A DNA stretch of 64,000 nucleotides from assembly GCF_040954835.1 (NCBI RefSeq), contig NW_027168298.1:186001-250000 (forward strand), in the 5' to 3' direction. The notes under the pieces were generated by a model. The model searched no databases and was not told where the DNA came from. It saw only the letters and a program-made list of their open reading frames with translations. The number at the start of each line of letters is the position of its first letter. The stretch's first letter is position 1. Below, in pieces: positions 27,301-61,546 of the stretch. This stretch comes from Lepisosteus oculatus. Lineage: Eukaryota > Chordata > Actinopteri > Semionotiformes > Lepisosteidae. The translations under genes were made by a program, and so were the position numbers.

Positions 27301-28128
27301 AGCCACAGTGTAACAATTATATAATAATAGTACAATACTGTATATATACTGTATATATATATGAAACAGAAATAGAAACAGAAACAGGAATCGCTTACTA
27401 CCTGGAGAATCTCTGTAGGAATATCTAGCATTTATCAATGGAAATAAAAGCTGCTTTAATACAGTGCATGTTCAAACTCAAACCCTCAGCTGCTGTTCTT
27501 GTTTGTTTTGGGACAAATTGCAACTGAGCATCGCATGAGCCGTTACGTACCCTTATCTGTTAGGGAATTTCAAGGGAGGAGTTAGGTCAGAATGGGTAGG
27601 CTGCAAAACAACAAGTAAAGATTTATTCCGAGATGAAACGTTGTGGCGGTTTTCTTATCTTTTCAACATGGACTAAACTTTTACGTGTTCCTTATATGCT
27701 ATATATGTATATATTAGCACCAATGTCGTTCTTAAAAACTAACATGAAATTGTCAGGGACATTCACCTATATACAAAGACGAGACAGACAAAGTAATAAT
27801 TCTATATTAACGTGGCCTACATATTGACGCAATGATCGAACTAACTGACGTGTTCTGATTCAGATCCCCTGCAGTTCATGCCAATTAGAACAATAGCAAT
27901 GCTGAGTCCTCCCCACCCTACTGAGCACAAATTCAGCTGCTCTCCAGTTCTGTTCTGCATGTTTTTTCATTGCAATTGAGCTCGGAGCTGGAGATGATCT
28001 CCATACAGTTCTGTGTTAACTAGCCCGCACTTGCGTGCTAATTTACGGGTTGTGGCAGATGCTTTTCTATAGTTCATATACATGACGGCAACCTGTTACC
28101 GAGGAACCTGAGAGGTTTAAAAGCCTCA

Positions 28129-28201
28129 CGAACCAGGCAGGACTCGAACCTACAATCTTCTGATCCGAAGTCAGACGCGTAATTCATTACGCCACTGGCC
28201 C
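28129..28201 (-). tRNA. tRNA-Arg (TCG)
   Basis: Arginine tRNA with loop CTTCGGA (anticodon TCG). The acceptor GGGCCAG pairs with CTGGTTC through two G-T wobbles, and the T arm GTAGG-TTCGAGT-CCTGC is sound. The D loop has lost one of the GG pair (TGAATTA instead of TGGATAA). A T4 run follows about 8 nt after the gene. Its inverted-repeat partner at 59918 has a TTG anticodon. Confidence 0.88.
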
Positions 28202-29077
28202 ATAGAACATGTGTTTGCATTCCACCACAGAGAGCTCTACACTGCTACCAGTAGTACACTTCCCCATCTAAATTTTCACAGCAAGAAACTTGTGTTTCCT
28301 ACTATTTTTATCAGGTTTAAAATATCATCTCCTTAAAACAGAAAAAGTGTTGGTGTGTCATGCTGAAATTCTGATTGATTTTGAATTCAAAGAAAAAAGG
28401 TTTTCTTCCAAAACACCGTGAAATTGTCACATCTTGCAGACAATAGGTGTATTCCATGTTGAAAAGAGAAGAAAGAAAACCATGGAGCCTTTTACAGGTG
28501 TGAGGCTTCTTCAGGTGTGAGAAGACCTCACGGCCGAAACGCTGTGTTTCCGTTCTTCTCTTTTCAGCATGCAATAAACCTATTACTTGTTCCTTTGCAG
28601 CCGAGGCATGCTGACGTAGCTACCCAGCTGAACATCTTGCAGACTCTACAGTACTTCTCTCCTGTAGAAGTAAAGCAGGGCTTGCTGGGTGAGCTTTTGC
28701 TCCGGTAAATTAGGTCACGTGTCATGTTAAATCACTTCTTCTAAACACAACATTTGCTGGTGCTAGCTTTCCCCATGAAAAGAGACATTTCCCTTACAGT
28801 ACATGACATATCGTTTTTATTCTATCAATAAGTATAGAAATTAAACAAAAGAAAAAATGGTGTCGCCAAAGAATGCACAGCTCTGTCGCCTTGGGGAGGT
28901 GTCAAGGGCATTGAGCTCCTTGGACATGAGAAGTGCCCGATAAATGCCATTTCTCATCATTTCTCTTGGCGTCAGTTCTGCTATTAAATGGGACGGAGGC
29001 AACGGGCTCAGAGAGCAGATTAAGTGCACACCGAACGCAGATGTGTCCAAGTGTCTGTAAAAGCACGGTGCTCTGCT
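28202..29077. other. Array spacer, no gene seen
   Basis: Spacer between Arg and Thr in the left arm, matching 59044-59917 in reverse. It contains short repeats with GAAGAAAGAAAACCATGG and GCATGCTGACG landmarks. The open frames differ between arms. Confidence 0.65.
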
Positions 29078-29151
29078 GGCGCTGTTCCCTAGTGGCTTAA
29101 AGTGCCTGCCTAGTAAGCAGGCGATCCTGGGTCTGAATACCAGCGGTGCCT
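29078..29151 (+). tRNA. tRNA-Thr-like (AGT), altered D arm
   Basis: A 74-nt tRNA with anticodon AGT, perfect anticodon stem CCTGC/GCAGG and acceptor GGCGCTG/CGGTGCC with one weak pair. The D arm is unusual (TTCCCTAGTGGCTTAAAGTG) and lacks the GG pair of a normal D loop. The T-loop region reads GGGTCTGAATACC and there is no T-run after it. Compared with its partner at 58970 the only difference in 74 nt is A versus G at anticodon position 34. Confidence 0.8.
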
Positions 29152-29394
29152 CTCTCCGTGTCTTGTTGTGCCGCATATCTCATTTCAGACAAACATGTAC
29201 AGCTTGGTTCAGTTTAATGCAAGAATTCATTTCCTTTCTGGAATAACTTGTTTTTGAAGAAATCCATACAGCTTGTGAAAGATGAAATCCATTTCTTGGT
29301 TGTCAGTGGAAAAAGATTGCCGGCTGCAAGAAGTGCAAGTGATTGTTTTCTTTGACCATAAACCTGCAAATGTAGGGCGCACAAAAGACTGTCA

Positions 29395-29442
29395 GACTCT
29401 GTGGTGCTGAAAAGTTGGTGGTTCAAGCCCCTCCAGTATGCG
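29395..29442 (+). pseudogene. tRNA-Asn remnant (internal deletion)
   Basis: The ends match the Asn gene of the other arm (58653-58726): GACTCTGTGG at the 5' side and GTTGGTGGTTCAAGCCC near the 3' side. About 25 nt of D arm and the whole anticodon arm are gone. The gene is therefore lost in the left arm only. Confidence 0.82.
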
Positions 29443-30790
29443 TGTCTCAGTTTTTCCAATGTAAACATCATCACCATTGCTAAAGAAGATGGCGCAGAAG
29501 GCTCCACAGCCGAAACGTTGTGCTTCTTTTCTTCTCTTTTCAGCATGGAGTAAACCTTTGCTTTATCCTTTGCAGCCTAAGCATGCTGACGCAGCTACCT
29601 TTCTCTTAACACGCCTCAATCATTATTCACCAAAACGATCAGCAGAATAAGTCGCCTTTGTGGTGATGTCACTCCTCTGCTTCACAAATGTCCTTAGTGA
29701 CGGGCCATTTCTTTCTGCCATTTTTCCGGAGCGGTTATTGATTGCTCCATCATTTCCCTCTTACTTTCCATCACTAGATTGAAAAAAAAAACAGAAACAG
29801 GCTGACAGGACGACAATCAAATTGCAAAAACTCATCAAAGCACTCGATAGAGTATTTGAATCCACAAGTAGCTACGAGCAACTTTGTCCTGGCTTGCATG
29901 AAAGTCGGAAAATGTCAAAAAGAAAAAGATGGTGGCTTTTTCATATTCGTTCTTTTATTTTTAGTTCGTTGCTTCTTCTGTCCATTGTCCTCCTGCCTGG
30001 CTCTTAACCTGTGACTGTTTGAACGCACACAGTAGACTTTCATGCAGGGGATTTGTCCTGAGCCTCTGTGAAAGACCCACCCACCCCCATAAATAACTGC
30101 TCTAGAAACACATGAATGCAAAACTAAACCACAGCTTAAAGAGGAGCTTGTCATGACCGCCAGGCAGTTAAGACCAACTCTTAAGCAATCTAAACAGCAC
30201 CAGCAGCGGGTGATTATTAACAAACGCCGCCGCATGAGTTAACCCACCTGCACACACTCCACCGTGCGGTACGCAGTGCTATTTTTACCATCTTTACCTG
30301 CTTCCCGCTGGTATTGAGTCTACTCCTTGAGAGCTCTACCTGGCGTTTTTTCCATTACCTCGTTTATTCTGGATATTGGACTCCCCTTCTGCCTTTTCGA
30401 CTTTGGACCTCGCCTCTCACCTCGGACTGTTTGCCACCAGTGTTCTCCCTGGATTACGACTTACCTTACGCCTCTTGACCAAGAAACAAAGCAAAGCAGA
30501 GCAAAACAAAATGAACAAACGAAAACCCTCACGTCCCGCACTTGCATATAACGCCGTTACGTGCCCAAGCGGTATTTTACGTCATCCTAGCACTGCACCC
30601 CGGGGCGTACGGTATATGGGAACGAGCACACGGCATGAATCGTCTCGAATCACTCCCTACAGCTGTAAGGCACCTTGAAGCATGCACCCCCAACATTCTT
30701 CTTTGCGCATCTGTGAAAGGTAAACTCTTGAGCAAACTCTGAACCAGCTCTAAGGAAACTAATCCGATTAGACGTTACTTTGACTCATCT
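29443..30790. repeat. Asn-module flank and Ser-flank fragment
   Basis: About 29443-30235 is the reverse of 57861-58652, and its inner part also matches the second Asn module at 62466-63174. 30480-30790 is near-identical to 45310-45620 (direct) and inverse to 47650-47960 and 57345-57650; it is the Ser-gene 5' flank without its tRNA. No gene is seen. Confidence 0.7.
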
Positions 30791-31200
30791 TTTAAGGGAC
30801 CCTTGTTAATTGGAGAAATCAATGATTTCGAATGAATTCTGTATGCGTTAAAAGACAGCTATACACAGAAAACATGCAGGACACTTCTCATGATGTTTCC
30901 CGAGCCGAAACACAGTGCGTTTTTCCAAGCCATCTGACAAAGCCCGCCCACTGAAAACTGCAGCAAATCGTGTAAAGACGTTCAACTTTGTAACTACTGC
31001 ACGCACAGGAAGCAGAATAAATTCCTCTTTTCAAACTGTCAAAGGTTTGCTTTGCGAACACTGCAGGGCATCGCACAATCTCTTTTGAACGGGGACAAAC
31101 GATTTCTTATGGGGCACAGTAAGTACAGACGTTTAAAAAGCTCCACTCATGCCGACGATGCAGCATGAAGAAGCGCAACCTAACGTTTGCATTCCTAGCA
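30790..31200 (-). repeat. Gly-module flank fragment without tRNA
   Basis: Matches the outer part of the Gly module (8725-8945, and inverse 37785-38060, 39440-39765) and the right arm at 56950-57345. The Gly tRNA itself is missing. Confidence 0.75.
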
Positions 31201-31269
31201 AATTCCTTTTATTTTTTGATAAATAAAGACAGTCTTGTTTAACAAACAACACACACAACATTTTACATT

Positions 31270-32282
31270 GTCAATTCAATTCAAATCAATGTATTTCTAT
31301 ATAGCGCCTTTCACAACAAGGTTGTCCCAAGGCACTTAACAATGCAAGTTGTTAAGAGCCTTGTGTCTAATATGCCGCCTAGGTAACGTGCTGTCTCTTT
31401 GAGGCAAATGTTTAAATCCTCTGAGTTAAGTGCTGAAGTTATAGTAGTCCTATCAGTATTGTTGCCTCCGATCAACAGATCCTCAGTTTTCTCAGAGTTG
31501 AGTAACAAAAAGTTTTCACACATCCAAGTATTTCCTTCCTTAATGCATTTAACTAAACTGATAATAGAAGAGTTGTCGTTTGGTGTAAACAAAATGTTTA
31601 TTTGAGTGTCATCAGCATATGAATGAAAGTTCATATTATTTTTTCATATTATCCTACCTATCAGCAGCATGTAGAGAGAGAGAGCAATATTGGTCCCAGC
31701 ACTGATCTTCTGGTACCCCAAATTGAACTGGTGACATTGATGAAGCAGTACAATTATTAGATATTTGAACATAATGAAAACGATGAGTAAAATGTGAAGT
31801 AAACCACTGAAGGACGGTTCCAGATAAGCCAACCTCAAACTCAAGCCTGTGTAACAAAACAGAGAGGTCAACCGTGTCAAAGGCAGCTCTAAGATCTAAA
31901 AGCACAAGCACTGTTGCATTCCCCGCATCAGTAGCTAAGAGAATATCATTTACGACTCTTGTTAATGCAGTTTCAGAAACCAGACTGAAATTTCTCAAGT
32001 ATATTATTTGAATCCAGATACGATTGACGTTGGGCAACAACTATTCTCCCAAGACTTTTAGATTGAAATGGGACCTTTGAGACAGGCCTGTAGTTGTTAA
32101 GAACTTGTGGATCCAAATTTGACTTCTTAAGGAGCGGTCTAACAACCGCTACCTTAAATTGATCAGGTACAACGCCTGACGCAAGCGATGCATTCATCAT
32201 ACTAATTATAGGTCCTGCCAGTCCTCCGAGGGAATCTTTGACTAGCTGAGTGGGGATGGGATCTAGCGAACAGGTGGTTGAC
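31270..32282 (-). mobile_element. L2-type LINE fragment (reverse transcriptase)
   Basis: The minus strand encodes pieces of an L2/CR1-group reverse transcriptase in more than one frame: LVKDSL-GLAGPIISMMNASL, VVRPLLKKSNLDPQVLNNYRPVS, VLLDLRAAFDTVDLSVLL and the catalytic SYADDTQI. The 3' end has CTATATAGAAATACATTGAT, a typical fish L2 tail, then an ATTGAATTG repeat. It is 5'-truncated at the Tc1 boundary and frameshifted, so dead. Same insertion in the right arm: 55852-56870. Confidence 0.9.
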
Positions 32283-33216
32283 TTTGTCTTACGTCTGTGT
32301 CCATGAATCCACCATAAGAAGAAATCTGAACAGGAGTGGTGATCATGCGAGGTCACCATGGAGGAAACCACTGCTCTCCCCCCAAAAAAAAACACCACTG
32401 CCCCTCTCAAGTTTGTTAAAGACCACATGGATGTTCCACAGCAACTCCTGGAACAATGTTCTGTGGACAGACGTGACAAAAGTTGAACTTGTTGGTAAAT
32501 GTGCACAGCGTTATGTTTTGAGATAACAAAACACTGCATACCAACTCCAAAACCTCATCCCACCTGGGAAGCATGGCGGAGGCTGTACGGCTTGCAATCA
32601 TCGAGGGACCGATGAATTCCAAGATGTATCAGGAAATTCTACAGCAGAATGTCAGGGTGTCTGCCTGTGATCTAAAACTTGAAAGACGCTGGGTCATGCA
32701 GCATTACAAAAACAAAGGATTACATCAACAACAGAGTGGCTGAAACAGAAGAAATTCCGTATTTTGGGATGGCCAAGTAAGAGTCCTGACCCCAATCCCA
32801 TTGAAGTGCTGTGGCGTGATCTGAAGCAGGTCGTTCAGCGCAAGACATCCCAAAAATATACATGAACTGAAACAGTTTTGCATAGAGGAATAGGCCAAAA
32901 TACCTCCTAACCGCTGCTCAGGTCTGACCAGCCGCTACAGAAAGTGGGGGTTGAGGTTTTTGTCATAAAGGAGGTTCCACTAGCTCCTTAATATAAGGGT
33001 TCACGTACTTTTTCCATCAATGACCTTGATTGTTTAAACCATTTGGTCAATAAAGAAACAGCAATGTCAAATGTTGGGCGTGTGTTGTTTGTGAAATCAG
33101 ACTCTCTTTATTAATTATTATGACTTAGATAAAGATAAGATCACATGTTAGGAGCCATTCATGCAGAAATCCACATCATTCCGAAGGGCTGTTTACAAAA
33201 GTTTTTCTCCCAACTG
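32283..33216 (+). mobile_element. Tc1-like DNA transposon fragment
   Basis: The plus strand shows degenerate Tc1 transposase: a CVHESTIRRNLNRSG segment, WTDVTKVEL (catalytic Asp region) and a SPDPNPIE-like segment further on. The 3' end terminates in a CAACTG terminus next to TA (33217), the Tc1/mariner target dinucleotide. The 5' part is missing, and the fragment meets the L2 fragment directly at about 32283. Right-arm counterpart: 54920-55851. Confidence 0.88.
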
Positions 33217-33310
33217 TATGTGAGAGAAAAGCAGAGACGCTCACTGAGTAAGGTGGGGTTGCAGCTTTGCAAATCACAAGGACATTTGTACGCTCAAAAT
33301 GGGACAGGAG

Positions 33311-33383
33311 CACCCCAGATGGGACTCGAACCCACAATCCCTGGCTTAGAAGGCCAGTGCCTTATCCATTAGGCCACTGGGAC
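33311..33383 (-). tRNA. tRNA-Arg (TCT; body of the CCT type)
   Basis: The body is that of tRNA-Arg(CCT), but loop CTTCTAA gives anticodon TCT, so it stays an arginine tRNA (AGA/AGG). The acceptor GTCCCAG/CTGGGGT pairs with two wobbles at the end. D arm, anticodon stem ACTGGC/GCCAGG and the T arm are intact. A T4 run lies about 13 nt downstream. Its partner at 54753 has CCT. Confidence 0.92.
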
Positions 33384-34800
33384 ACACTGGGTTGGGTCGA
33401 TCACGCTGATGAAGAGCCAGTTTTTTTTTTTCCTTTGCTTTTTCAAAGGGATCCCCAAAATTAGGAAAGTTAGGCAGCAGAAGGTTTACTGTGACCTGAG
33501 AAGGACCGGCATCCAATCACGGTGGTGCACACACACACGCTCTCACTCATCTGAGCTACACGGCTACCAAGATGATCTCAGGTGCGCCGAGCTGGTACGG
33601 AACATATTGAACTGATTGACGGCGAATTGTTTCTCAGACAGGCTTTTCACCTCTGAGCTCCCTGACTGACAGTAATCCGCTAGGTAGTGAAACAGTCAGC
33701 TGCTTCTAAGCCTTAAACAGCTGCATCTCGGCGCTTCCACAGAGAGATGATTTGAAAGCCAAACATCGCCCATTGGGAACACCTTACTATCACTAGTTTA
33801 AGAGACTCTTAAGGTCTTGCAGAGGTGCCTGTCTAATAGCATGCGCTTTGCAAGCTATAGGTGTTTGGACTAAGGCAGAATGCCTGTTAACAAAATGTTT
33901 TTCTAAAGGGGCCTCGCACTCTTTTCCAAGCAATGGTCACCATCCCCACCGAGTGTCACAATGTAGTCATGTCATAGGACATCACCTGTTAGTCTCCATT
34001 TGTCTGCCACCAACACTTTAGGTTACGGGGTCACAACCGCACCCCGGAGACCAGAGGAGCCGTTGGCGTTCTGGCGGCGCAGATTGGGCTGAAGGTGGGG
34101 CGCTTGAATCTCGCTGTTGGAGGCCGTCTGAAACTGACCCAAGCCTTTCCCTTGAATTAAATGTAAATAAGAAATGAACCCCAGATGCACATGGAATCAA
34201 TCACGTGTTTCCTTTGAGCCGTTTCAGAGACTGCTCCAGAGTTTACCTTGCACAGATGCGCAAAGATTAATGATGGGGGTGCACGCTTCCAGGCGTCTTA
34301 CTACTGTAGGGAGTGATTGAGACAATTCGTAGCTTGTGCTCATTTCCCTCTATTCCCCGTGTTACAGTGGTAGGATGACGTAAATTCCTGCTTCGACACG
34401 TAACGGGACTATAATCAAGTGCAGGAGCTGAGGGCTTTAGTTTTGTTTCGTTTTCCATGGCGTTCGTAAGCGCGCAAATCAAAGGCAATTCCTGCGTCTA
34501 ACACGAATGTAAATGCTTTTGAAAGTGCAGTGTGGTGCAGCTTGTAAAATCCTTGTCCACATTTTTGGTTTGTTGATGTTTTTTTCTGTCTGCCAAAGTT
34601 GCGTTTTGACATCCGGACTGGGGGACTTTATCATTTGAACGTGAAGCCAGCCTTAAACCCTCTGAGGCGTGTCTGTCTGCCGGCACGAATCTTGTGAAAG
34701 GTATTTTTTTTTTAACGGAGAGCAACTTTAAAAAGGTTTCCGCAGCCACCTCGCAGTCCGTGTTTGATTATAGGAGGAATACGGCGGCGGCGAGTTCGCA
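33384..34800. other. Array spacer, no gene seen
   Basis: Spacer between Arg(TCT) and Ser(CGA) matching 53337-54752 in reverse. 34200-34800 is the Ser-gene 5' flank found at 16250, 20430, 45000 and 61640. Short open frames only. Confidence 0.7.
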
Positions 34801-34882
34801 TTTGTCGTGCTCGAGTGGTTAAGGCGATGGGCTCGAAATGCGTTGGGGCTTCCCCGCGCAGGTTCGAAACCTGCCGACTCCG
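34801..34882 (+). tRNA. tRNA-Ser (CGA), weakened
   Basis: Ser body with loop CTCGAAA (anticodon CGA), long variable arm GGGGCTTCCCC and intact B box (GGTTCGAAACC). The outer acceptor pairs are lost (TTTGTCG versus CGACTCC) and one anticodon-stem pair is G-G. The partner at 53255 shares the altered acceptor. Function is doubtful. Confidence 0.8.
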
Positions 34883-35836
34883 GCGTCTGCCGCACGTCGC
34901 CTTGTGCCTGCACGGCAGAGGCGAAGTGCCGCTTCTCCTTTCCTGGTACTATAACAACGCGAAATCGCTTGGACCCGCTGCCATTGAAATCAATTCTTCA
35001 GATAACCACACATTTTGCGTTCGCACCTCTGGTGCTCTACTTATACCTTTGAAAACCTAATGAATAAAGCTGAAAGAACCGACACGATATGTAGGTGCTG
35101 GTAAAGCACGCAGTAAAGAACTGTTAACAGCAAGGGTTTCAGTGGGTTAACTGAGGAGAAGGCGTGATCGCTAATTGTTGACTTTTTATTTGGTGTTAGA
35201 AACACTCTTACTGTGCATGACGTGCAACAAATGTAGCCACAGAAATTGCATCACGCTTTCATGTATGCTATTGCAGACACCAACGTTGCCTAGATAGAAA
35301 ACCGAAATAGCCGTGGGTTTGCTTGCTGGTCTGAAGGATCTCTCTTCGAATCTCTATCATTTGTCAATGGAAGTAAAAGGCGCTGCAATCTCATACGTTC
35401 AGAATCAAACCCGCAGCTGTTGTTCGACTTTATTTCTTGACTAATTACAACTGAGTGTCGCATGAGCAGTTACATAAACTTGTCTGGTATATTTGAACAC
35501 AAATGCCGTTCTTCAATTAAAACTAACAGAACATTGTCAGGGACATTCAGTTCTATACAAACAAGAGACAGACAAGAGAATATTTCTACCGTTCATGTGG
35601 ACTACGTGTTGACTTACTGATCGGAATAATTGAAAGGTTCGGGCTCATAGCCGATGCAGTGCGTGCTAATTAGAACAGCAACGCTGAGCTCTCAGCACCG
35701 TACTGAGCCCAGGTGTTTTTCTAAAGCTGTCAGGTGCAGTTCATTTACATGAAGGAAATCTCTTACCGGGTACGATTACAATGCAGTAAGTAGCACAGAC
35801 TACTTAGGGAGTAGCCAGATGCGTTTAAAAACGACC
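34883..35836. repeat. Array spacer of the tandem unit
   Basis: Spacer between Ser(CGA) and Arg, matching 16905-17862 closely and 52301-53254 in reverse. Nothing gene-like was recognised. Confidence 0.7.
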
Positions 35837-35909
35837 CGAGCCAGGCAGGAGTCGAACCTGCAATCTCTTGATCCATAGTCAGACGCGTTATCCATTGCGC
35901 CACTGGCCC
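35837..35909 (-). tRNA. tRNA-Arg-type body with ATG (His) anticodon, otherwise intact
   Basis: The body is Arg(ACG): acceptor GGGCCAG/CTGGCTC with G discriminator, T arm GCAGG-TTCGACT-CCTGC perfect, D arm complete, and a T5 run after the gene. The anticodon loop is CTATGGA, so the anticodon is ATG, which would read histidine CAU (and CAC if A34 is edited). One C-A mismatch lies in the anticodon stem. It lacks the extra 5' G that histidyl-tRNA needs and the C35 that arginyl-tRNA synthetase needs. Its right-arm partner (52228) keeps ACG. Confidence 0.88.
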
Positions 35910-37069
35910 CGGTGTGACACTGCAGGACTGTAACCCAGTGAGATCAGCACTGCAACTAGTAAAATATTACCCCCGGTCCATTCTTTACCAAAAGTGAGAA
36001 AGACCTGTTTTCTACATTTTGTCTGTTTTAAAACCATATCTCAAACCAAACCAAGAGTCTGTCTTTTGCACTGATATTCTGATTCATTTCGATTTCAAAG
36101 AAAAAAAAACATTATCTTCCAAAGCATCATAAAATTGTCCCTTCTTCCAGACTACTTCTCTCTTGTAGTAGTACAGCAGACCTTTCCAGGTGAGCAGATC
36201 ACAGAGTCCGAAATATGCTTCCTCCATCAAGAAAAGTACCTGAACATGACTCTGTCTTCATAAAAGCGCCCCTGTAATAAAGAAATTAAATCCGAAATCA
36301 AGAGGGCAGTTGCCTACTGAAGTTCAAGAAGTCATCAATTTTAACCTAGCAACACATTAAAGGCTGCATCTATACAAGTACGATTCTAGAAATGCTCACC
36401 AGATTACGTTTTAAGAAGGAACTGCGCCTCAGGTTCCGCCGAGATCTTAACTTGGATGGCAGGATTCAGAGTCCGGAGTGCGGACTGATGGCGCACGGAG
36501 GGTCCACATACTGTGGATCCCTCAGTTTTCTTCCGCGTGTTTAAACCGCCAGCGTGTGACTCCCCTGTCCCCGTGACCTCATTGCTCTGCTCTCGCCTCT
36601 GTGCAGCTGAGCCCGACTCATGGTAAAGTGGAAAAAAGTATGCCCTCAACGTGGGATTTACTCTGGATCGAGGATAGATGTCACTTTTTTATCATTGAAC
36701 AGGATGTATGTGATGTGGCGACTAGTTTCAATTTTGTATCCTCTTTAAAAGATTAAGGACTGGGGTGAGCGTGATTTACCACCCTTTCAGCTAAGAACCC
36801 GACATGCGGACCGTTTAAGCTGCATAGACTCGGTTGTTTAACTCGTCTCCGTTAGCAGGGTTAAGGTTAAAGAAAAAAAACATTGCTGACTTCTTTTTTT
36901 TTTTGCCAGCCGCCAGCGCTGATTAGCAAGGTTTGTATTTCATGTTTTGCAAGTTGCATCCATTTTAAGAAAAACAAGTCGCGTTAAAGACAGGAAATGA
37001 ATACTTGCAAGTCTAGCCGTAGGCGGTTGTCTGTAAGGACCAGTTCTGTTTGAGAAAACAGAACAAAGA

Positions 37070-37143
37070 AGGCACCGCTGGGATTTGAACCCAGGATCTC
37101 CTATTTACCAGGCAGGCGCTTTAACCAACTAAGCCCCGGCGCC
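37070..37143 (-). tRNA. tRNA-Thr with GGT anticodon
   Basis: The Thr body is well kept (acceptor GGCGCCG/CGGTGCC, B box GGTTCAAATCC). The loop is CTGGTAA, giving GGT instead of AGT. The anticodon stem has a weak inner end (CCTGC/ATAGG). Position 8 is changed (GGGG instead of GTGG). The terminal T-run of sister genes is broken here (CTTCTTTG). Eukaryotes rarely use a G34 form of this tRNA. Confidence 0.85.
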
Positions 37144-37522: not shown

Positions 37523-37604
37523 GACAAGGTGGCTGAGTGGTTAAGGCGATGGACTGGTAATCCATTGTGCTCTGCAGACATGGGTTTGAATCCCATTCTC
37601 ATCG
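37523..37604 (+). pseudogene. tRNA-Ser-type body with GGT (Thr) anticodon
   Basis: A Ser(GCT) body with the long variable arm, but loop CTGGTAA gives GGT, a threonine anticodon. The anticodon stem ATGGA/TCCAT is perfect and the discriminator is G. Two acceptor pairs are mismatched (GACAAGG/TCTCATC), so it may be dead. If it were made and charged, seryl-tRNA synthetase does not read the anticodon, and it could place Ser at Thr codons. Confidence 0.82.
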
Positions 37605-51105: not shown

Positions 51106-52227
51106 CGCCTACGGCTAGACTTAATTAAATGCAAGTATTCATTTCCTGTCTTTAACACGACTTGTTTTTCTTAAAATGGATGCAACTTGCAAAACATGAA
51201 ATACAAACCTTGCTAATCAGCGCTAGCAGCTGGCAAAAAAAAAGAAGTCAGCAATGTTTTTTTTCTTTAACCTTAACCCTGCTAATGGAGAAGAGTTAAA
51301 CGACCGAGTCTATGCAGCTTAAACGGTGCGCACGTCGGGATCTTAGCTGAAAGGGTGGTAAATCACGCTCACCCCAGTCCTTAATCTTTTAAAGAGGATA
51401 CAAAATTGAACCTAGTCGCCACATCACATACATCCTGTTCAATGATAAAAAGGTAACATCTATCCTCGCTCCAGAGTAAATCTCACGTTGAGGGCATATT
51501 TTTTTTCACTTTACCGTGAATCGGGCTCGGCTGCACAGAGGAGAGAGCAGAGCAATGAGGTCATGGGGACAGGGGAGTCACACGCTGGCTGTTTGAACAC
51601 GCGGAAGATCACTGAGGGATCCACAGTATATGGACCCTCCGTGCGCAATCAGTCCGCACTCCGGACTCTGAATCCTGCCATCCGAGTTAAGATCTCGGCA
51701 GAACCTGAAGCGCAGTTCCTTCTTAAAACGTAATCTGGTGAGCATTTCTAGAATCGTACTTGTATAGATGCAGCCTTTAATGTGTTGCTAGGTTAAAATT
51801 GATGACTTCTTGTATTTCAGTAGGCAACTGCCCTCTTGATTTCAGATTGAATTTCTTTATTACAGGGGCGCTTTTATGATGACAGAGTCATGTTCAGGTA
51901 CTTTGCTTGATGGAGGAAGCTCATTTCGGACTCTGTGATCTGCTCACCTGGAAAGGTCTGCTGTACTACTACAAGAGAGAAGTAGAGTCTGGAAGAAGGG
52001 ACAATTTTATGATGCTTTGGAAGGTAGTTTTTTTTTTCTTTGAAATCGAAATGAATCAGAATATCAGAGCAAAAGACAAACTCTTGGTTTGGTTTAAAGA
52101 GATATGGTTTTAAAACAGACAAAATGTAGAAAACAGGTGTTTCTCACTTCTGGAAAAGAATGGACCGGGGTATTTTACTAGTTGCAGTGCTGAGCTCACC
52201 GGGTTGCAGTCCTGCAGTGTTGCACCA

Positions 52228-52300
52228 GGGTCAGTGGTGCAATGGATAACACGTTTGACTACGGATCAGGAGATTGTAGGTTCGACTTCTGCCTGCCTCG
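52228..52300 (+). tRNA. tRNA-Arg (ACG)
   Basis: Anticodon ACG in CTACGGA. The acceptor GGGTCAG/CTGCCTC has one T-C mismatch; the T arm GTAGG-TTCGACT-TCTGC pairs with wobble; a T5 run follows about 6 nt downstream. Partner of the ATG gene at 35837, with which it differs at about nine positions, many at CpG. Confidence 0.87.
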
Positions 52301-53254
52301 GGTCGTTTTTAAACGCATCGGGCTACTCCCTAAGTAGCCTGTGCTACTTACTGTATTGTAATCGTACCCAGTAAGAGATTTCCTTCATGTAAATGAACTG
52401 CACTTGACAGCTTTAGAAAAACACCTGGGCTCAGTACGGTGCTGAGAGCTAATCGTTGCTGTTGTTCTAATTAGCACGCACTGCATCGGCTATGAACCCG
52501 AACTTTTCAATTATTCCGATCAGTAAGTCAACACGTAGTCCACATGAAAGGTAGAAATATTCTCTTGTCTGTCTCTTGTTTGTATAGAACTGAATGTCCC
52601 TGACAATGTACTGTTAGTTTTAATTGAAGAACGGCATTTGTGTTCAAATATACCAGACAAGTTTACGTAACTGCTCATGCGACACTCAGTTGTAATTAGT
52701 CAAGAAATAAAGTCGAACAACAGCTGCGGGTTTGATTCTGAACGTATGAAATTGCAGCGTCTTTTACTTCCATTGACAAATGATAGAGATTCGAAGAGAG
52801 ATCCTTCAGACCAGCAAGCAAACCCACGGCTATTTCGGTTTTCTATCTAGGCAACGTTGGTGTCTGCAATAGCATACATGAAAGCGTGATGCAATTTCTG
52901 TGGCTACATTTGTTGCACGTCATGCACAGTAAGAGTGTTTCTAACACCAAATAAAAAGTCAACAATTAGCGATCACGCCTTCTCAGTTAACCCACTGAAA
53001 CCCTTGCTGTTAACAGTTCTTTAATGCGTGCTTTACGAGCACCTACATATCGTGTCGGTTCTTTCAGCTTTATTCATTAGGTTTTCAAAGGCATAAGTAG
53101 AGCACCAGAGGTGCGAACGCAGAACGTATGGTAATCTGAAGAATTGCTTTCCATGGCAGCGGGTCCAAGCGATTTAACGTTTTTATAGTACCGGGAAAGG
53201 AGAAGCGGCACTTTGCCTTTGCCGCGCAGGCACAAGGCGACGTGCGGCAGACGC
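52301..53254. repeat. Array spacer, no gene seen
   Basis: Reverse of 34883-35836. No recognisable gene. Confidence 0.7.
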
Positions 53255-53336
53255 AGGAGTCGGCAAGTTCCGAACCTGCGCGGGGAGTCCCTAACGCATT
53301 TCGAATCCGTCGCCTTAACCACTCGGCCATGACAAA
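53255..53336 (-). tRNA. tRNA-Ser (CGA), weakened
   Basis: Partner of 34801. Loop TTCGAAA with anticodon CGA, D arm GGCCGAGTGGTTAAGGC intact, variable arm GGGACTCCCC. The outer acceptor pairs are mismatched and the T-loop is TTCGGAA, so function is doubtful. The only aligned arm pair in which the anticodon is unchanged. Confidence 0.8.
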
Positions 53337-54752
53337 AGCGAGCTCGCTGCCGCCGCATTCCTCCTAAAATCTAACACGGAGTGCGAGGTGGCTGCGGAAA
53401 CCTTTTTAAAGTCGCTCTCCGTTAAAAAAAAAAAAAACCTTTCACAAGATTCGTGCCGGCAGACAGACACGCCTCAGGGTTTAAGGCTGGCTTCACGTTC
53501 AAATGATAAAGTCCCCCAGTCCGGATGTCAAAATGCAACTTTGGCAGACAGAAAAAACAGCAACAAACCACAAATGTGGAAAAGGATTTTACAAGCTGCA
53601 CCACACTGCACTTTCAAAAGCATTTACATTCGTGTTAGACGCAGGAATTGCCTTTGATTTGCGCGCTTACGAACGCCATGGAAAACGAAACAAAACTAAA
53701 GCCCTCAGCTCCTGCACTTGATTATAATGCCGTTACGTGTCGAAGCAGGAATTTACGTCATCCTACCACTGCAACACGGGGAATAGAGGGAAATGAGCAC
53801 AATCTACGAATTGTCTCTAAACAGTCCCTACAGTTGTAAGACGCCTGGAAGCGTGCACCCCCATCATTAATCTTTGCGCATCTGTGCAAGGTAAACTCTG
53901 GAGCAGTCTCTGAAACGGCTCAAAGGAAACACGTGATTGATTCCATGTGCATCTGGGGTTCATTTCTTATTTACATTTAATTCAAGGGAAAGGCTTGGGT
54001 CAGTTTCAGACGGCCTCCAACAGCGAGATTCAAGCGCCCCACCTTCAGCCCAATCTGCGCCGCCAGAACGCCAACGGCTCCTCTGGTCTCTGGGGTGCGG
54101 TTGTGACCCTGTAACCTAAAGTGTTGGTGGCAGACAAATGGAGACTAACAGGTGATGTCCTAGGACATGACTACATTGTGACACTCGGTGGGGATGGTGA
54201 CCATTGCTTGGAAAAGAGTGCGAGGCCCCTTTAGAAAAACATTTTGTTAACAGGCATTCTGCCTCAGCCTAAACACCTATAGCTTGCAAAGCGCATGCTA
54301 TTAGACAGGCACCTCTGAAAGACCTTAAGAGTCTCTTAAACTAGTGATAGTAAGGTGTTCCCAATGGGCGATGTTTGGCTTTCAAATCATCTGTCTGTGG
54401 AAGCGCCGAGATGCAGCTGTTTAAGGCTTAGAAGCAGCTGACTGTTTCACTAGCTAGCTGATTACTGTCAGTCAGGGAGCTCAGAGGTGAAAAGCCTGTC
54501 TGAGAGACAATTCGCCGTTGTTCAGTTCAATATGTTCCGTACCAGCTCGGCGCACCTGAGATCATCTTGGTAGCCGTGTAGCTCAGATGAGTGAGAGCGT
54601 GTCTGTGTGTACCACCGTGATTGGATGCCGGTCCTTCTCAGGTCACAGTAAACCTTCTGCTGCCTAACTTTCCTAATTTTGGGGATCCCTTTGTAAAAGC
54701 AAAGGAAAAAAAAAACTGGCTCTTCATCAGCATGATCGACCCAACCCAGTGT
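53337..54752. other. Array spacer, no gene seen
   Basis: Reverse of 33384-34800: Ser-gene 5' flank, then spacer. Nothing gene-like was recognised. Confidence 0.7.
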
Positions 54753-54825
54753 GCCCCAGTGGCCTAATGGATAAGGCACTGGCCTCCTAAGCCAGGGTTT
54801 GTGGGTTTGAGTCCCATCTGGGGTG
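54753..54825 (+). tRNA. tRNA-Arg (CCT)
   Basis: 73 nt with anticodon CCT (AGG). The acceptor GCCCCAG/CTGGGGT pairs throughout (one terminal G-T), with canonical A box GTGGCCTAATGG. The T-loop is TTTGAGT. A T4 run lies about 13 nt downstream. Partner of the TCT gene at 33311. Confidence 0.93.
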
Positions 54826-54919
54826 CTCCTGTCCCATTTTGAGCGTACAAATGTCCTTGTGATTTGCAAAGCTGCAACCCCACCTTACTCAGTGAGCGTC
54901 TCTGCTTTTCTCTCACATA

Positions 54920-55851
54920 CAGTTGGGAGAAAAACTTTTGTAAACAGCCCTTCGGAATGATGTGGATTTCTGCATGAATGGCTCCTAACATGTGATCTTA
55001 TCTTTATCTAAGTCATAATAATTAATAAAGAGAGTCTGATTTAACAAACAACACATGCCCAACATTTGACATTGCTGTTTCTTTATTGACCAAATGGTTT
55101 AAAAAATCAAGGTCATTGATGGAAAAAGTACGTGAACCCTTATATTAAGGAGCTAGTGGAACCTCCTTTATGACAAAAACCTCAACCCCCACTTTCTGTA
55201 GCGGCTGGTCAGACCTGAGCAGCGGTTAGGAGGTATTTTGGCCTATTCCTCTATGAAAAACTGTTTCAGTTCATGTATATTTTTGGGATGTCTTGCACTG
55301 AACGGCCTGCTTCAGATCACGCCACAGCACTTCAATGGGATTGGGGTCAGGACTCTTACTTGGCCATCCCAAAATACGGAATTTCTTTTGTTTCAGCCAC
55401 TCTGTTGTTGATGTACTCCTTTGTTTTTGTCATGCTGCATGACCCAGCGTCTTTCGAGTTTTAGATCACAGGCAGACACCCTGACATTCTGCTGTAGATT
55501 TTCCTGATACATCTTGGAATTCATCGGTCCCTCGATGATTGCAAGCCGTACAGCCTCCGCCATCCTTCCCAGGTGGGATGAGGTTTTGGAGTTGGTATGC
55601 AGTGTTTTGTTATCTCCAAACATAACGCTGTGCACATTTACCAACAAGTTCAACTTTTGTCACGTCTGTCCACAGAACATTGTTCCAGGAGTTGCTGTGG
55701 AACATCCATGTGGTCTTTAGCAAACTTGAGAGGGGCAGTGGTGGTTTTTTTTGGGGGGAGAGCAGTGGTTTCCTCCATGGTGACCTCGCATGATCACCAC
55801 TCCTGTTCAGATTTCTTCTTATGGTGGACTCATGAACACAGACGTAAGACA
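54920..55851 (-). mobile_element. Tc1-like DNA transposon fragment
   Basis: Inverted-repeat counterpart of 32283-33216. The terminus reads CAGTTGGGAG immediately after TA (54918-54919), the expected edge of a Tc1/mariner element. The transposase region is frameshifted. It meets the L2 fragment near 55852. Confidence 0.88.
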
Positions 55852-56870
55852 AAGTCAACCACCTGTTCGCTAGATCCCATCCCCACTCAGCTAGTCAAAG
55901 ATTCCCTCGAAGGACTGGCAGGACCTATAATTAGTATGATGAATGCATCGCTTGCGTCAGGCGTTGTACCTGATCAATTTAAGGTAGCGGTTGTTAGACC
56001 ACTCCTTAAGAAGTCAAATTTGGATCCACAAGTTCTTAACAACTACAGGCCTGTCTCAAAGGTCCCATTTCAATCTAAAAGTCTTGGGAGAATAGTTGTT
56101 GCCCAACGTCAATCGTATCTGGATTCAAATAATATACTTGAGAAATTTCAGTCTGGTTTCTGAAACTGCATTAACAAGAGTCGTAAATGATATTCTCTTA
56201 GCTACTGATGCGGGGAATGCAACAGTGCTTGTGCTTCTAGATCTTAGAGCTGCCTTTGACATGGTTGACCTCTCTGTTTTGTTACACAGGCTTGAGTTTG
56301 AGGTTGGCTTATCTGGAACCGTCCTTCAGTGGTTTACTTCACATTTTACTCATCGTTTTCATTATGTTCAAATATCTAATAATTGTACTGCTTCATCAAT
56401 GTCACCAGTTCAATTTGGGGTACCAGAAGATCAGTGCTGAGACCAATATTGCTCTCTCTCTCAACATGCTGCTGCTAGGTAGGATAATATGAAAAAATAA
56501 TATGAACTTTCATTCATATGCTGATGACACTCAAATAAACATTTTGTTTACACCAAACGACAACTCTTCTATTATCAGTTTAGTTAAATGCATTAAGGAA
56601 GGAAATACTTGGATGTGTGAAAACTTTTTGTTACTCAACTCTGAGAAAAATGAGGATCTGTTGATCGGAGGCAACAATACTGATAGGACTACTATAACTT
56701 CAGCACTTAACTCAGAGGATTTAAACATTTGCCTCAAAGAGACAGCACGTAACCTAGGCGGCATATTAAACACAAGGCTCTTAACAACTTGCATTGTTAA
56801 GTGCCTTGGGACAACCTTGTTGTGAAAGGCGCTATATAGAAATACATTGATTTGAATTGAATTCACAATG
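55852..56870 (+). mobile_element. L2-type LINE fragment (reverse transcriptase)
   Basis: Counterpart of 31270-32282: LVKDSL-GLAGPIISMMNASL, VLLDLRAAFDMVDLSVLL and SYADDTQI in shifting frames, ending in CTATATAGAAATACATTGAT and an ATTGAATTC tail. Dead fragment. Confidence 0.9.
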
Positions 56871-56949
56871 TAAAATGTTGTGTGTGTTGTTTGTTAAACA
56901 AGACTGTCTTTATTTATCAAAAAATAAAAGGAATTTGCTAGGAATGCAA

Positions 56950-57945
56950 ACGTTAGGTTGCGCTTCTTCATGCTGCATCGTCGGCATGAGTGGAGCTTTT
57001 TAAACGTCTGTACTTACTGTGCCCCATAAGAAATCGTTTGTCCCCGTTCAAAAGAGATTGTGCGATGTCCTGCAGTGTTCGCAAAGCAAACCTTTGACAG
57101 TTTGAAAAGAGGAATTTATTCTGCTTCCTGTGCGTGCAGTAATTACAAAGTTGAACGTCTTTACACGATTTGCTGCAGTTTTCAGTGGGCGGGCTTTGTC
57201 AGATGGCTTGGAAAAACGCACTGTGTTTCAGCTCGGGAAACATCATGAGAAGTGTCCTGCATGTTTTCTTTGTATAGCTGTCTTTTATCGCATACAGAAT
57301 TCATTCGAAATCATTGATTTCTCCAATTAACAAGGGTCCCTTAAAAGATTAGTCAAAGTAACGTCTAATCGGATTAGTTTCCTTAGAGCTGGTTCAGAGT
57401 TTGCTCAAGAGTTTACCTTTCACAGATGCGCAAAGAAGAATGTTGGGGGTGCATGCTTCAAGGTGCCTTATAGCTGTAGGGAGTGATTCGAGACGATTCG
57501 TGGCGTGTGCTCGTTCCCATATACCGTACGCCCCGGGGTGCAGTGCTAGGATGACGTAAAATACCGCTTGGGCACGTAACGGCGTTATATGCAAGTGCGG
57601 GACTTGAGGGTTTTCGTTTGTTCATTTTGTTTTGCTCTGCTTTGCTTTGTTTCGTGGTCAAGAGGCGTAAGGTAAGTCGTAATCCAGGGAGAACACTGGT
57701 GGCAAACAGTCCGAGGTGAGAGGCGAGGTCCAAAGTCGAAAAGGCAGAAACGCCAGGTAGAGCTCTCAAGGAGTAGACTCAATACCAGCGGGAAGCAGGT
57801 AAAGATGGTAAAAATAGCACTGCGTACCGCACGGTGGAGTGTGTGCAGGTGGGTTAACTTGTGTGGCGGCGTTTGTTAATAATCACCCGCTGCTGGTGCT
57901 GTTTAGATTGCTTAAGAGTTGGTCTTAACTGCCTGGCGGTCATGA
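56950..57945. repeat. Gly-module and Ser-flank fragments without tRNAs
   Basis: 56950-57345 matches the outer Gly module (39380-39765). 57345-57650 is the Ser-gene 5' flank. About 57655-57945 is absent from the second Asn module (62.47 kb) but present in the left arm (30190-30480), so it was inserted before the inverted duplication. No gene is seen. Confidence 0.7.
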
Positions 57946-57948
57946 CAA

Positions 57949-58659
57949 GCTCCTCTTTAAGCTGTGGTTTAGTTTTGCATTCATGTGTTTCTAGAGCAGT
58001 TATTTATGGGGGTGGGTGGGTCTTTCACAGAGGCTCAGGACAAATCCCCCGCCTGAAAGTCTAATGTGTGCGTTCAGAGAGTCACAGGTCAAGAGCCAGG
58101 CAGGAGGACAATGGACAGAAGAGCCAACGAACTAAAAATAAAAGAACAGATATGAAAAAGCCACCATCTTTTTCTTTTTGACATTTTCCGACTTTCACGC
58201 AAGCCAGGACAAAGTTGCTTGTAGCTACTTGTGGATTCAAATACTCTATCGAGTGCTTTGATGAGTTTTTGCAATTTGATTGTCGTCCTGTCAGCCTGTT
58301 TCTGTTTTTTTTTTCAATCTAGGGATGGAAAGTATGAGGGAAATGATGGAGCAATCAATAACCGCTCCGGAAAAATGGCAGAAAGAAATGGTCCGTCACT
58401 AAGGACATTTGTGAAGCAGAGGACTGACATCACCACAAAGGCGACACATTCTGCTGATGGTTTTGGTGAATAATGATTGAGGCGCGTTAAGAGAAAGGTA
58501 GCTGTGTCAGCATGCGTAGGCTGCAAAGGATCAAGCAAAGGTTTACTCCATGCTGAAAAGAGAAGAAAAGAAGCACAACGTTTCGACTGTGGAGCCTTCT
58601 GCGCCATCTTCTTTAGCGGTGATGATGTTTACATTGGAAAAACAGAGACATGCGTCCCT

Positions 58660-58720
<61 letters not shown>

Positions 58721-58853
58721 AGAGACTGACAGCCGCTTGTGCTCCCTACATTTGCAGGTTTATGGTCAAAGAAAATAATCACTTGCGCTTCTTGCAGCCG
58801 GCAATCTTTTTCCACTGACAACCAAGAAATGGATTTCATCTTTCACAAGCTGT
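57949..58853. repeat. Asn module, copy 1
   Basis: Direct repeat of 62466-63380 (offset about 4.52 kb), nearly identical by eye. Carries the Asn gene at 58653. Confidence 0.88.
58653..58726 (-). tRNA. tRNA-Asn (GTT)
   Basis: 74 nt matching the vertebrate Asn consensus, with anticodon GTT in CTGTTAA, acceptor GTCTCTG/CAGGGAC and G discriminator. Only the T-loop is changed (TTCAAGC). A T5 run lies about 12 nt downstream. Its 3' end is the complement of the fossil LTR element's primer site at 7319. The left-arm partner is deleted. Confidence 0.95.
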
Positions 58854-58969
58854 ATGGATTTCTTCAAAAACAAGTTATTCCAGAAAGGAAATGAATTCTT
58901 GCATTAAACTGAACCAAGCTGTACATGTTTGTCTGAAATGAGACATTCGGCACAACAAGACACGGAGAG

Positions 58970-59043
58970 AGGCACCGCTGGTATTCAGACCCAGGATCGC
59001 CTGCTTACCAGGCAGGCACTTTAAGCCACTAGGGAACAGCGCC
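58970..59043 (-). tRNA. tRNA-Thr-like with GGT anticodon
   Basis: Identical to its left-arm partner (29078) except for G at anticodon position 34, giving GGT. Acceptor and anticodon stems pair, but the D arm is atypical (TTCCCTAGTGGC) and no T-run follows. This is a second, independent appearance of a GGT Thr anticodon beside 37070. Confidence 0.82.
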
Positions 59044-59917
59044 AGCGGAGCACCGCGCTTTTACAGACACTTGGACACATCTGCATTCGGTGTGCACTTA
59101 ACCTGCTCTCTGAGCCCGTTGCCTCCGTCCCATTTAATAGCAGAACTGACGCCAAGAGAAATGATGAGAAATGGCATTTATCTGGCACTTCTCATGTCCA
59201 AGGAGCTCAATGCCCTTGACACCTCCCCAAGGCGACAGAGCTGTGCATTCTTTGGCGACAACATTTTTTCTTTTGTTTTATTTCTATAGTTATTGATAGA
59301 ATAAAAACGATATGTCATGTACTGTAAGGGAAATGTCTCTTTTCATGGGGAAAGCTAGCACCAGCAAATGTTGTGTTTAGAAGAAGTGATTTAACATGAC
59401 ACGTGACCTAATTTACCGGAGCAAAAGCTCACCCAGCAAGCCCTGCTTTACTTCTACAGGAGAGAAGTACTGTAGAGTCTGCAAGATGTTCAGCTGGGTA
59501 CCTACGTCAGCATGCCTCGGCTGCAAAGGAACAAGTAATAGGTTTATTGCATGCTGAAAAGAGAAAAACGGAAACAGCGTTTCGACTGTGGGGTCTTCTC
59601 ACACCTGAAGAAGCCTCACACCTGTAAAAGGCTCCATGGTTTTCTTTCTTCTCTTTTCAACATGGAATACACCTATTGTCTGCAAGATGTGACAATTTCA
59701 TGGTGTTTTGGAAGAAAACCTTTTTTCTTTGAATTCAAAATCAATCGGAATTTCAGCACGACACATCAACACTTTTTCTGTTTTAAGGAGATGATATTTT
59801 AAACCTGATAAAAATAGTAGGAAACACAAGTTTCTTGCTGTGAAAATTTAGATGGGGAAGTGTACTACTAGTAGCAGTGTAGAGCTCTCTGTGGTGGAGT
59901 GCAAGCACGTGTTCTAT
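59044..59917. other. Array spacer, no gene seen
   Basis: Reverse of 28202-29077. No recognisable gene. Confidence 0.65.
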
Positions 59918-59990
59918 GGGCCAGTGGCGTAATGGATAACGCTTCTGACTTTGGATCAGAAGATTGTAAGTTCGAGTCCTGCCTGGCTCG
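59918..59990 (+). tRNA. tRNA-Arg-type body with TTG (Gln) anticodon
   Basis: The body matches Arg(TCG): acceptor GGGCCAG/CTGGCTC with G discriminator, complete D arm, anticodon stem TCTGA/TCAGA perfect. The loop is CTTTGGA, so the anticodon is TTG (glutamine CAA), a CpG transition from TCG. One A-C mismatch lies in the T stem (GTAAG/CCTGC). A T4 run follows about 8 nt downstream. Its partner at 28129 keeps TCG. Confidence 0.88.
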
Positions 59991-61546
59991 TGAGGCTTTT
60001 AAACCTCTCAGGTTCCTCGGTAACAGGTTGCCGTCATGTATATGAACTATAGAAAAGCATTTGCCACAACCCGTAAATTAGCACGCAAGTGCGGGCTGGT
60101 GAACACAGAACTGTATGGAGATCATCTCCAGCTCCGAGCTCAATTGCAATGAAAAAACATGCAGAAAAGAACTGGAGAGCAGATGAATTTGTGCTCAGTA
60201 GGGTGGGGAGGACTCAGCATTGCTATTGTTCTAATTGGCATGAACTGCAGGGGATCTGAATCAGAACATGTCAGATAGTTCGATCATTGCGTCAATATGT
60301 AGGCCACGTTAATACAGAATTATTACTTTGTCTGTCTCGTCTTTGTATATAGCTGAATGTCCCTGACAATTTCATGTTAGTTTTTAAGAACGACATTGGT
60401 GCTAATATATACATATATAGCATATAAGGAACACGTAAATGTTTAGTCCATGCTGAAAAGATAAGAAAACCGCCACAACGTTTCATCTTGGAATAAATCT
60501 TTACTTGTTGTTTTGCAGCCTACCCATTCTGACCTAACTCCTCCCTTGAAATTCCCTAACAGATAAGGGTACGTAACGGCTCATGCGATGCTCAGTTGCA
60601 ATTTGTCCCAAAACAAACAAGAACAGCAGCTGAGGGTTTGAGTTTGAACATGCACTGTATTAAAGCAGCTTTTATTTCCATTGATAAATGCTAGATATTC
60701 CTACAGAGATTCTCCAGGTGAGTAAGCGATTCCTGTTTCTGTTTCTATTTCTGTTTCATATATATACATTATATATATATATGTTACATGTGTCTCTGCA
60801 ATAGTATAAATGTGTTATACACTATCAGGGGCTGCTTTTTTGTGCACCTCATCTACAACAAGGGTTTTTTTTTCATTTATGTTTGTGGACCTTCACCATT
60901 TGAGGAAGTGAGTTAGATAAGAAAGTTACAGGTATGGTGAGCAATGACTGACAAAGGCACGTACTGCGTATTCCTTACAGAAGTGTAAGCAATTTGTTCT
61001 AAAAAACACCGGCTAAAGTCCAACATCGTTAGCAATCTTATTACTTAAACAGAATTAACATCAATAAACTGTAAGGTGCTGGTACATGCGAGTAGATTTG
61101 ATCTTCTATTAAACAAAAATGCAATTACAGCTCTAAAAAGGTCAACCTAGACTTCTGTAACAGATCTGTTCAGGTCATCGCTGTTTCTCTGACCTTGTGA
61201 GTCTTTGGAATTTTAAAAGTGTATTTTGCTTGCCTTTCATGTGGTCTGTGTACAAGTCACTGTGGCGTATGCGGTCCTACACAGCCTTGCTATAGACGTG
61301 ACGAGCCTCCGCTATGTTGCAATGGAGAACAGGTTCAGTACGGAGCTGCCGAGAAAATTCAGCTGGAAAGCTCGTTGCAGAAAAGCATTGTTATCTGTGT
61401 CCAGCGGCAAAGCGTCCTTCGTGGGTGCTGAAGAATCGATTTCACAGGCTGCGGGTCCAGGCGATTTAGAGTGTTAAAGGTCCCAGCGAAAACGAAACGG
61501 CGCTGGTCCTTTTACACGCACGCACGCAACCAAATGCAAAGGACGC
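59991..61546. other. Spacer, no gene seen
   Basis: To about 60770 this is inverted-repeat sequence (reverse of 27340-28128). Beyond that is AT-rich DNA with a TA microsatellite (60765-60783) and then a GC-richer Ser 3' flank. Short open frames only. Confidence 0.65.

Follow-up and report, generated by a model that had tools for sequence, protein, structure and literature searches.

Anticodon differences between paired tRNA genes of a Lepisosteus oculatus tRNA array as probable products of a local substitution hotspot

The stretch of Lepisosteus oculatus DNA considered here, 64,000 nucleotides (nt) of contig NW_027168298.1 (assembly GCF_040954835.1, positions 186,001 to 250,000, forward strand; hereafter the window), carries an array of tRNA genes, seven of which on one arm of an inverted repeat have a partner on the other arm, and the question raised by this locus is why six of these seven pairs differ at the anticodon. 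The reading that we favour, with a probability of approximately 0.75, is that the six differences arose by ordinary point substitution within a hotspot covering the tRNA gene and about 20 nt upstream of it, in surplus array copies on which selection is relaxed, the hotspot itself being probably due to transcription-associated mutagenesis. The tRNA genes of the array are substitution hotspots, and their bodies seem no longer to be well guarded.

A repeat search of the window located the inverted arms, and tRNA genes were annotated with ARAGORN and Rfam. Alignment of 27340-37760 with the reverse complement of 50420-60770 gave 96.3% identity over 10,281 ungapped columns, and the arms are homologous; blastn divided them into 27341-29407/58714-60777 (97.3%), 29409-30348/57748-58685 (96.0%), 30387-37009/51130-57749 (96.9%) and 37078-37616/50560-51097 (91.7%). 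Addition of approximately 200 kb of contig around the window, which holds more copies of the tRNA modules of the window, gave a contig stretch of 264 kb in total, and the majority anticodon among these further copies identifies the copies at 59918, 58970, 33311, 35837, 37070 and 37523 as derived. The arms and their paired genes are as follows:

27341..37616, no strand: left arm of the inverted repeat (blastn against the right arm, minus strand, 91.7-97.3%)
50560..60777, no strand: right arm of the inverted repeat (blastn), a mosaic of paralogues
28129..28201, minus strand: tRNA-Arg body, anticodon TCG (ancestral); TCG in 4 of 5 copies on the contig stretch
59918..59990, plus strand: partner of 28129, Arg body with the Gln anticodon TTG (derived, CpG site); 20/21 stem pairs
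29078..29151, plus strand: degenerate tRNA-Thr, AGT (ancestral); Rfam 31.2 bits, 18/21 pairs, T loop TCTGA
58970..59043, minus strand: partner of 29078, degenerate tRNA-Thr, GGT (derived); one difference in 74 nt, AGT in 4 of 5 copies
33311..33383, minus strand: tRNA-Arg, TCT (derived from CCT); 21/21 pairs, T loop TTCGA, TTTT at +12, CCT in 2 of 3 copies
54753..54825, plus strand: partner of 33311, tRNA-Arg, CCT; T loop TTTGA (alignment, stem check)
34801..34882, plus strand: degenerate tRNA-Ser, CGA; 15/20 pairs, unlisted at the Rfam cut-off
53255..53336, minus strand: partner of 34801, degenerate tRNA-Ser, CGA; 12 differences, anticodon unchanged
35837..35909, minus strand: tRNA-Arg body, ATG (derived, CpG site); ACG in 7 of 10 copies
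52228..52300, plus strand: partner of 35837, tRNA-Arg, ACG (ARAGORN, alignment)
37070..37143, minus strand: tRNA-Thr, GGT (derived); 20/21 pairs, AGT in 8 of 10 copies
51032..51105, plus strand: partner of 37070, tRNA-Thr, AGT, 3' acceptor strand lost (alignment, stem check)
37523..37604, plus strand: tRNA-Ser body, GGT (derived, C to G at position 35); GCT in 9 of 10 copies with letters there
50572..50653, minus strand: partner of 37523, tRNA-Ser, GCT (ARAGORN, alignment)

These seven pairs had been proposed, with these positions and anticodons, from an alignment by eye (the original prediction), and alignment of the homologous arms bore out both the pairs and the claim that six of them differ at the anticodon, the shifted copies retaining homologous flanks. 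It likewise confirmed that the anticodon base is the sole difference (1/74) between 29078 and 58970, and that roughly one in ten tRNA positions differ, the exact figure being 57 of 526 aligned sites. The differences are distributed as 6 (28129/59918), 1 (29078/58970), 4 (33311/54753), 12 (34801/53255), 9 (35837/52228), 11 plus five gap columns (37070/51032) and 14 (37523/50572). By type, the six anticodon changes are C>T (three), A>G (two) and C>G (one), and two of the C>T changes are at CpG sites, as was held when CpG decay was proposed for two of the six. Stem pairs remain intact in the shifted copies at 21/21 (33311), 20/21 (59918 and 37070), 19/21 (35837), 18/20 (37523) and 18/21 (58970). 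The copies at 29078, 58970, 34801 and 53255 have broken stems, the first two scoring 31.2 and 33.5 bits in Rfam at a cut-off of 29 and the 34801/53255 pair being unlisted at that cut-off, while the final 5 nt of the 51032 copy are unaligned, with the 3' acceptor strand lost and four acceptor pairs broken. If any of these copies is a functional isoacceptor shift, the structurally intact TCT copy at 33311 is the strongest candidate. A link with inosine editing for the A34 to G change in tRNA-Thr, seen twice (58970 and 37070), was considered and dropped as too thin.

An excess of change at the anticodon is limited to the copies that suggested the question. Within the arms the anticodon differs at 6 of 21 sites as compared to 51 of 505 other tRNA sites (2.25 expected, stratified P=0.017), the excess persists without CpG sites (4/15 against 37/439, P=0.031), and a hit in six of seven pairs has P=0.0013, all of these P values having been computed after the pattern had been seen. 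No such excess was found in nine other pairs of the window (3/27 against 62/657, P=0.49); all sixteen pairs together gave P=0.043, or 0.13 without CpG sites. The nine were hand-picked from the pair table to avoid overlap, leaving out the near-identical pairs 2540/50572 and 3000/51032 as well as the tRNA-Ile at 21601, and the pair 44607/46832 was counted ungapped at 10/71 (local alignment: 7/66). A parsimony test on the 264 kb covered 79 copies in 11 families, with trees built from clean flanks whose ranges were chosen per family by eye, and yielded 14 anticodon changes against 10.3 expected with arm copies included (P=0.18; non-CpG 9 against 4.6, P=0.05). When the arm copies were removed, 10 families with 62 copies were left and the anticodon was counted in nine of them, as family Rc retained one copy and the anticodon columns of family N contained gaps; 7 changes at 27 sites were then observed as compared to 8.4 expected (P=0.70; non-CpG 4 against 3.5, P=0.45). 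This test replaced one with flanks to 400 nt, nonhomologous in several families, which had inflated the flank rates (15 against 10.6 expected, P=0.14). Cloverleaf positions were assigned by hand, and the D stem so assigned to tRNA-Gly-TCC looks out of register. T-loop positions 54-58, which are part of the internal promoter, were about as variable as the anticodon over the 16 pairs (13/80 and 9/48). The modest anticodon excess of the original prediction holds for the arms, with and without CpG sites, and fails elsewhere on the contig; a repeat of the test, which had been proposed there for the whole tRNA array of the genome, came out negative on the 264 kb of contig, and anticodon-specific enrichment was rejected.

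What does replicate is a hotspot for the tRNA gene as a whole and the sequence directly preceding it. Between the arms, the tRNA bodies display 57 differences where flank rates by CpG class predict 20.1 (Poisson P=1e-11); in the 20 nt upstream 21 were counted as compared to a predicted 6.1 (P=2e-6), and in the 20 nt downstream 3 as compared to 4.6. For five 75-column segments drawn at random from the arms, a total as high as the 32 differences in the five inner tRNAs has P=1e-5, unmatched for CpG. One of the upstream segments is:

28202..28221, minus strand: the 20 nt preceding tRNA 28129-28201, an example of the upstream hotspot; pooled over the seven pairs, 21/140 positions differ

In the nine other window pairs the upstream segment is similarly elevated (26 against 13.6 expected, P=0.002). 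Across the 11 families, clean flank accumulated 409/4763 or 0.086 changes per site, the tRNA body 260/822 or 0.32 (3.7 times clean flank) and the 20 nt upstream 102/220 or 0.46 (5.4 times), and non-CpG columns retain 3.0 times (body) and 4.8 times (upstream). Body exceeds clean flank in 10 of 11 families, the exception being the degenerate tRNA-Thr family (T), and upstream exceeds it in 10 of 11, the exception being Rc. Mean pairwise divergence at -20..-35 is at most 5.1% in 8 of 11 families and higher in Ra (15.1%), S2 (9.5%) and S1 (8.5%). Transitions predominate in the body (189 to 71 transversions, as compared to 232 to 177 in flank, P=3e-5), the upstream substitutions are also transition-rich, and the private arm differences comprise 21 changes of the types C>T and G>A as compared to 6 in the opposite direction. 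The original prediction had set flank divergence as the rate against which to judge the anticodon, a yardstick that would mislead, as flank diverges several-fold more slowly than the entire body and the 20 nt preceding it.

Two further tRNA families of the genome served as controls. A tandem array of 32 tRNA-Cys genes (C7:28500565-28534169, unit approximately 1.08 kb), all with anticodon GCA, was aligned over 30 of its 32 copies, the two at the array ends being dropped, and 7 of 20 sites were variable at -19..0, as compared to 0/81 at -20..-100 and 39/980 in all other flank bins. A tRNA-Lys-TTT family with homologous flanks, dispersed along the 60-Mb contig C14 from 3.8 to 58.7 Mb, gave pairwise divergences of 0.199 at -10..-19, 0.076 at -9..0, 0.059 in the body and 0.168 at +1..+10, with flank at approximately 0.04 at -20..-100 and approximately 0.08 at more distant upstream positions. 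No anticodon change was present among the 17 distinct copies of the 20 in this family; the set consists of the best-scoring tRNA matches, and its body conservation comes partly from that choice. The upstream hotspot recurs in all three places sampled, and a hot body is what distinguishes the array studied here (C679).

The favoured reading, a hotspot combined with relaxed selection, can be set out as a series of steps. An inverted duplication gave rise to two arms, the flanks of which now differ by approximately 3%, and paralogues would later have exchanged sequence, as the mosaic of the arms suggests. The bodies and the 20 nt upstream then diverged several-fold faster than the flanks, mostly by transitions and at non-CpG sites too. 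As relaxed selection alone cannot lift divergence above that of neutral flank, the simplest requirement is a mutation rate that is raised locally, and the excess may stem from germ-line transcription by RNA polymerase III (Pol III) or from promoter complexes, that is, from transcription-associated mutagenesis, together with CpG decay. To judge from the contrast with the tRNA-Cys array, the body here, including the anticodon, has probably been released to a large extent from purifying selection. Six hits in seven arm pairs would then be mostly chance on top of the hotspot and relaxed selection, and of the causes offered in the original prediction it is chance with relaxed selection that fits the replication; a process specific to the anticodon is not supported.

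Several observations count against parts of this account. The tRNA-Cys body, with 4/72 variable sites, is at about flank level rather than below it, and in the nine non-arm pairs the CpG-corrected body excess is nonsignificant (62 against 51.8, P=0.09). One of these nine has 24% flank divergence; when it is omitted, the body carries 52 differences where the flanks of the individual pairs, uncorrected for CpG, predict 26.8, and it exceeds flank in 6 of the remaining 8. Outside the arms, elevation is also seen in the first nucleotides downstream (24 against 11.6 in the nine pairs), and over the 11 families the first 10 nt downstream carry 33/110 or 0.30 changes per site. Pairing was retained in 38 of 63 stem differences as compared to an expected proportion of 0.447, so that some selection on tRNA structure is, or was, still acting. 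Over the whole body, coding-strand C>T exceeds G>A (84/206 against 65/275, P=0.001), with no such bias in clean flank (72/1003 against 78/1076, P=1.0); this asymmetry comes from stems, where C>T preserves a G-U pair, while loops plus upstream gave 57/116 against 60/170 (P=0.07) and upstream alone P=0.26. A first strand-asymmetry test on four families had detected no significant effect, and that on 11 families is significant only where stem pairing confounds it. Furthermore, the body of the degenerate Thr family is not elevated (2/74), its upstream segment being so (4/20); selection should be absent in this family, and relaxed selection alone therefore does not predict its cool body. A dead internal promoter might explain this, but the upstream signal would then be odd; the same shape, hot upstream with a cool body, occurs in the intact tRNA-Cys array, so that a cool body is no proof of selection. 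Finally, the transcriptional cause of the hotspot is something that we infer.

Real anticodon switching, in which anticodon substitutions are favoured and array copies are recruited to decode other codons, would accommodate the arm excess (6/21 against 51/505, P=0.017), the intact TCT copy at 33311 and the non-CpG anticodon sites of the 79 copies (9 against 4.6, P=0.05), the last set including the arm copies that raised the question. We nevertheless regard it as very improbable, as the excess is absent outside the arms in each of the tests described above (P=0.49, 0.70 and 0.45) and the derived copies 58970 and 37523 have broken stems. By the identity rules, moreover, an Arg body with TTG, an Arg body with ATG or a Ser body with GGT would, if active, mistranslate or be charged poorly. 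Errors of assembly or base calling at the variant positions are less credible still: the 264-kb stretch contains 358 N letters, none of them in the window, but the hotspot recurs in most of the 11 families and, on another contig, in the tRNA-Cys array, with a transition-rich spectrum unlike that of a random error process.

Ectopic gene conversion among tRNA paralogues could shuffle short tRNA tracts, anticodons included, and here the structure of the arms is relevant. Among the 200-bp segments for which the window holds a third copy, 12 of 23 on the left arm and 13 of 25 on the right arm are nearer to that copy than to their partner, one further left-arm segment being without a partner match of 150 nt, and both arms are on this basis mosaics of paralogues, which points to later exchange. 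Both alleles occur in other family copies at 17 of the 53 arm differences with an outgroup, and the body is more homoplastic than clean flank (consistency index 0.80 as compared to 0.94, in nine families of five or more copies). The 20 nt upstream, however, lie outside tRNA homology and are at least as divergent as the body and approximately as homoplastic (non-CpG consistency index 0.90 for upstream and 0.88 for the body), and 36 of the 53 differences are private to one copy, the donors compared being those of the 264-kb stretch. Conversion as the main cause is weakened by these private alleles and by the upstream peak, and we consider it unlikely, albeit less so than the other alternatives. 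Decay of methylated CpG in silent tRNA genes would account for the greater divergence of CpG sites in the arm tRNAs (16/72 as compared to 41/454) and for the two anticodon changes at CpG, and passages of PMC11574265 describe array tRNA genes of zebrafish as almost fully CpG-methylated in early embryos, which we count in its favour. As the sole cause it is contradicted by the 3.0-fold (body) and 4.8-fold (upstream) excess retained at non-CpG columns and by the four anticodon changes outside CpG, and there is little chance that it alone produced the excess, to which it is still a contributor.

Transcription-associated mutagenesis is, by comparison with other systems, the known process with this footprint, and substitution is here elevated directly beside tRNA genes in the arms, in the 11 families and in the tRNA-Cys array. 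It was reportedly described at tRNA genes by Thornlow et al. in PNAS in 2018, as cited in PMC8113476. Human tRNA genes, according to parts of PMC8113476, combine an elevated mutation rate in the immediate flanks with very low body variation and strong purifying selection; here, in contrast, the body itself is hot, its rate being approximately two thirds of that upstream. Anticodon shifts are documented in sections of Rogers and Griffiths-Jones 2014 (PMC3923123), and the present substitutions, which fall at positions 34 and 35 in copies sharing homologous flanks, resemble them; unlike the shifts covered there, ours are among paralogues in one array, some of them degenerate, with no anticodon rate excess outside the arms. 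Portions of PMC5372738 state that large tRNAomes, zebrafish and cow being named, disregard G34/A34 anticodon-sparing, the significance of which is called unknown; the array likewise has non-canonical anticodons (Thr-GGT, Arg body with ATG, Asn-ATT), and, unlike in that account, parallel copies reveal them as derived substitutions. The array also resembles teleost tRNA arrays such as that on zebrafish chromosome 4, as far as excerpts of PMC11574265, PMC11417395 and PMC2888827 describe them, in being clustered, repetitive and mixed.

These results urge caution in taking the diversity of anticodons in large tRNA arrays for an innovation in decoding, as the anticodon outside the arms shows no higher rate of change than the remainder of the gene. 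They also provide a contrast within one genome, between the tRNA-Cys array on C7, in which an upstream hotspot accompanies a flank-level body, and the present array, in which the body is hot as well, and under relaxed selection the normally hidden substitution spectrum of the body would become directly readable and comparable with germ-line Pol III activity. Germ-line transcription of the array is plausible. A more speculative extension, which we hold to be rather unlikely, is that such arrays act as a hypermutating nursery of tRNA genes, in which unguarded copies, with Pol III still engaging them in germ-line cells, lay bare the mutation spectrum of transcription in the body and go on supplying variants that are structurally intact and carry a new anticodon (Arg TCT from CCT, Arg body with TTG, Thr GGT, Thr body with CTT), some of them possibly made in eggs.

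An eighth position in the arms was occupied by a tRNA-Asn pair, one member of which is no longer complete:

58653..58726, minus strand: tRNA-Asn GTT on the right arm; its left partner near 29395 has lost 27 nt including the anticodon

Deletions internal to tRNA genes that remove the anticodon span positions 13-39 (27 nt) in the tRNA-Asn copies at 29395 and window-relative -59251, possibly one event, and positions 24-38 (15 nt) and 25-56 (32 nt) in one tRNA-Ser copy each. All of them start in the D arm, and the deletion-bearing contig copies besides that near 29395 are at window-relative 78754, 69386 and -59251. A tRNA-Thr body with the anticodon CTT (Lys), two adjacent changes away from AGT, is located at window-relative -51730. 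The blocks 2568-3767 and 50600-51799, in the same orientation and with 99-100% identity per 200-bp segment, carry the truncated tRNA-Thr and a tRNA-Ser and are closer to one another than the arms are. ARAGORN and Rfam characterised the tRNA array of the window as mixed, and the Rfam matches within it include the U4 and U5 small nuclear RNAs, at 39025-39166 and 13593-13707, respectively. An open reading frame for a LINE-like (long interspersed nuclear element) endonuclease/reverse transcriptase is present at 9815-11635 on the minus strand; named relatives in a protein search with it include poeciliid fishes and a newt, the poeciliid proteins having 47-52% identity over 54-58% of the reading frame.

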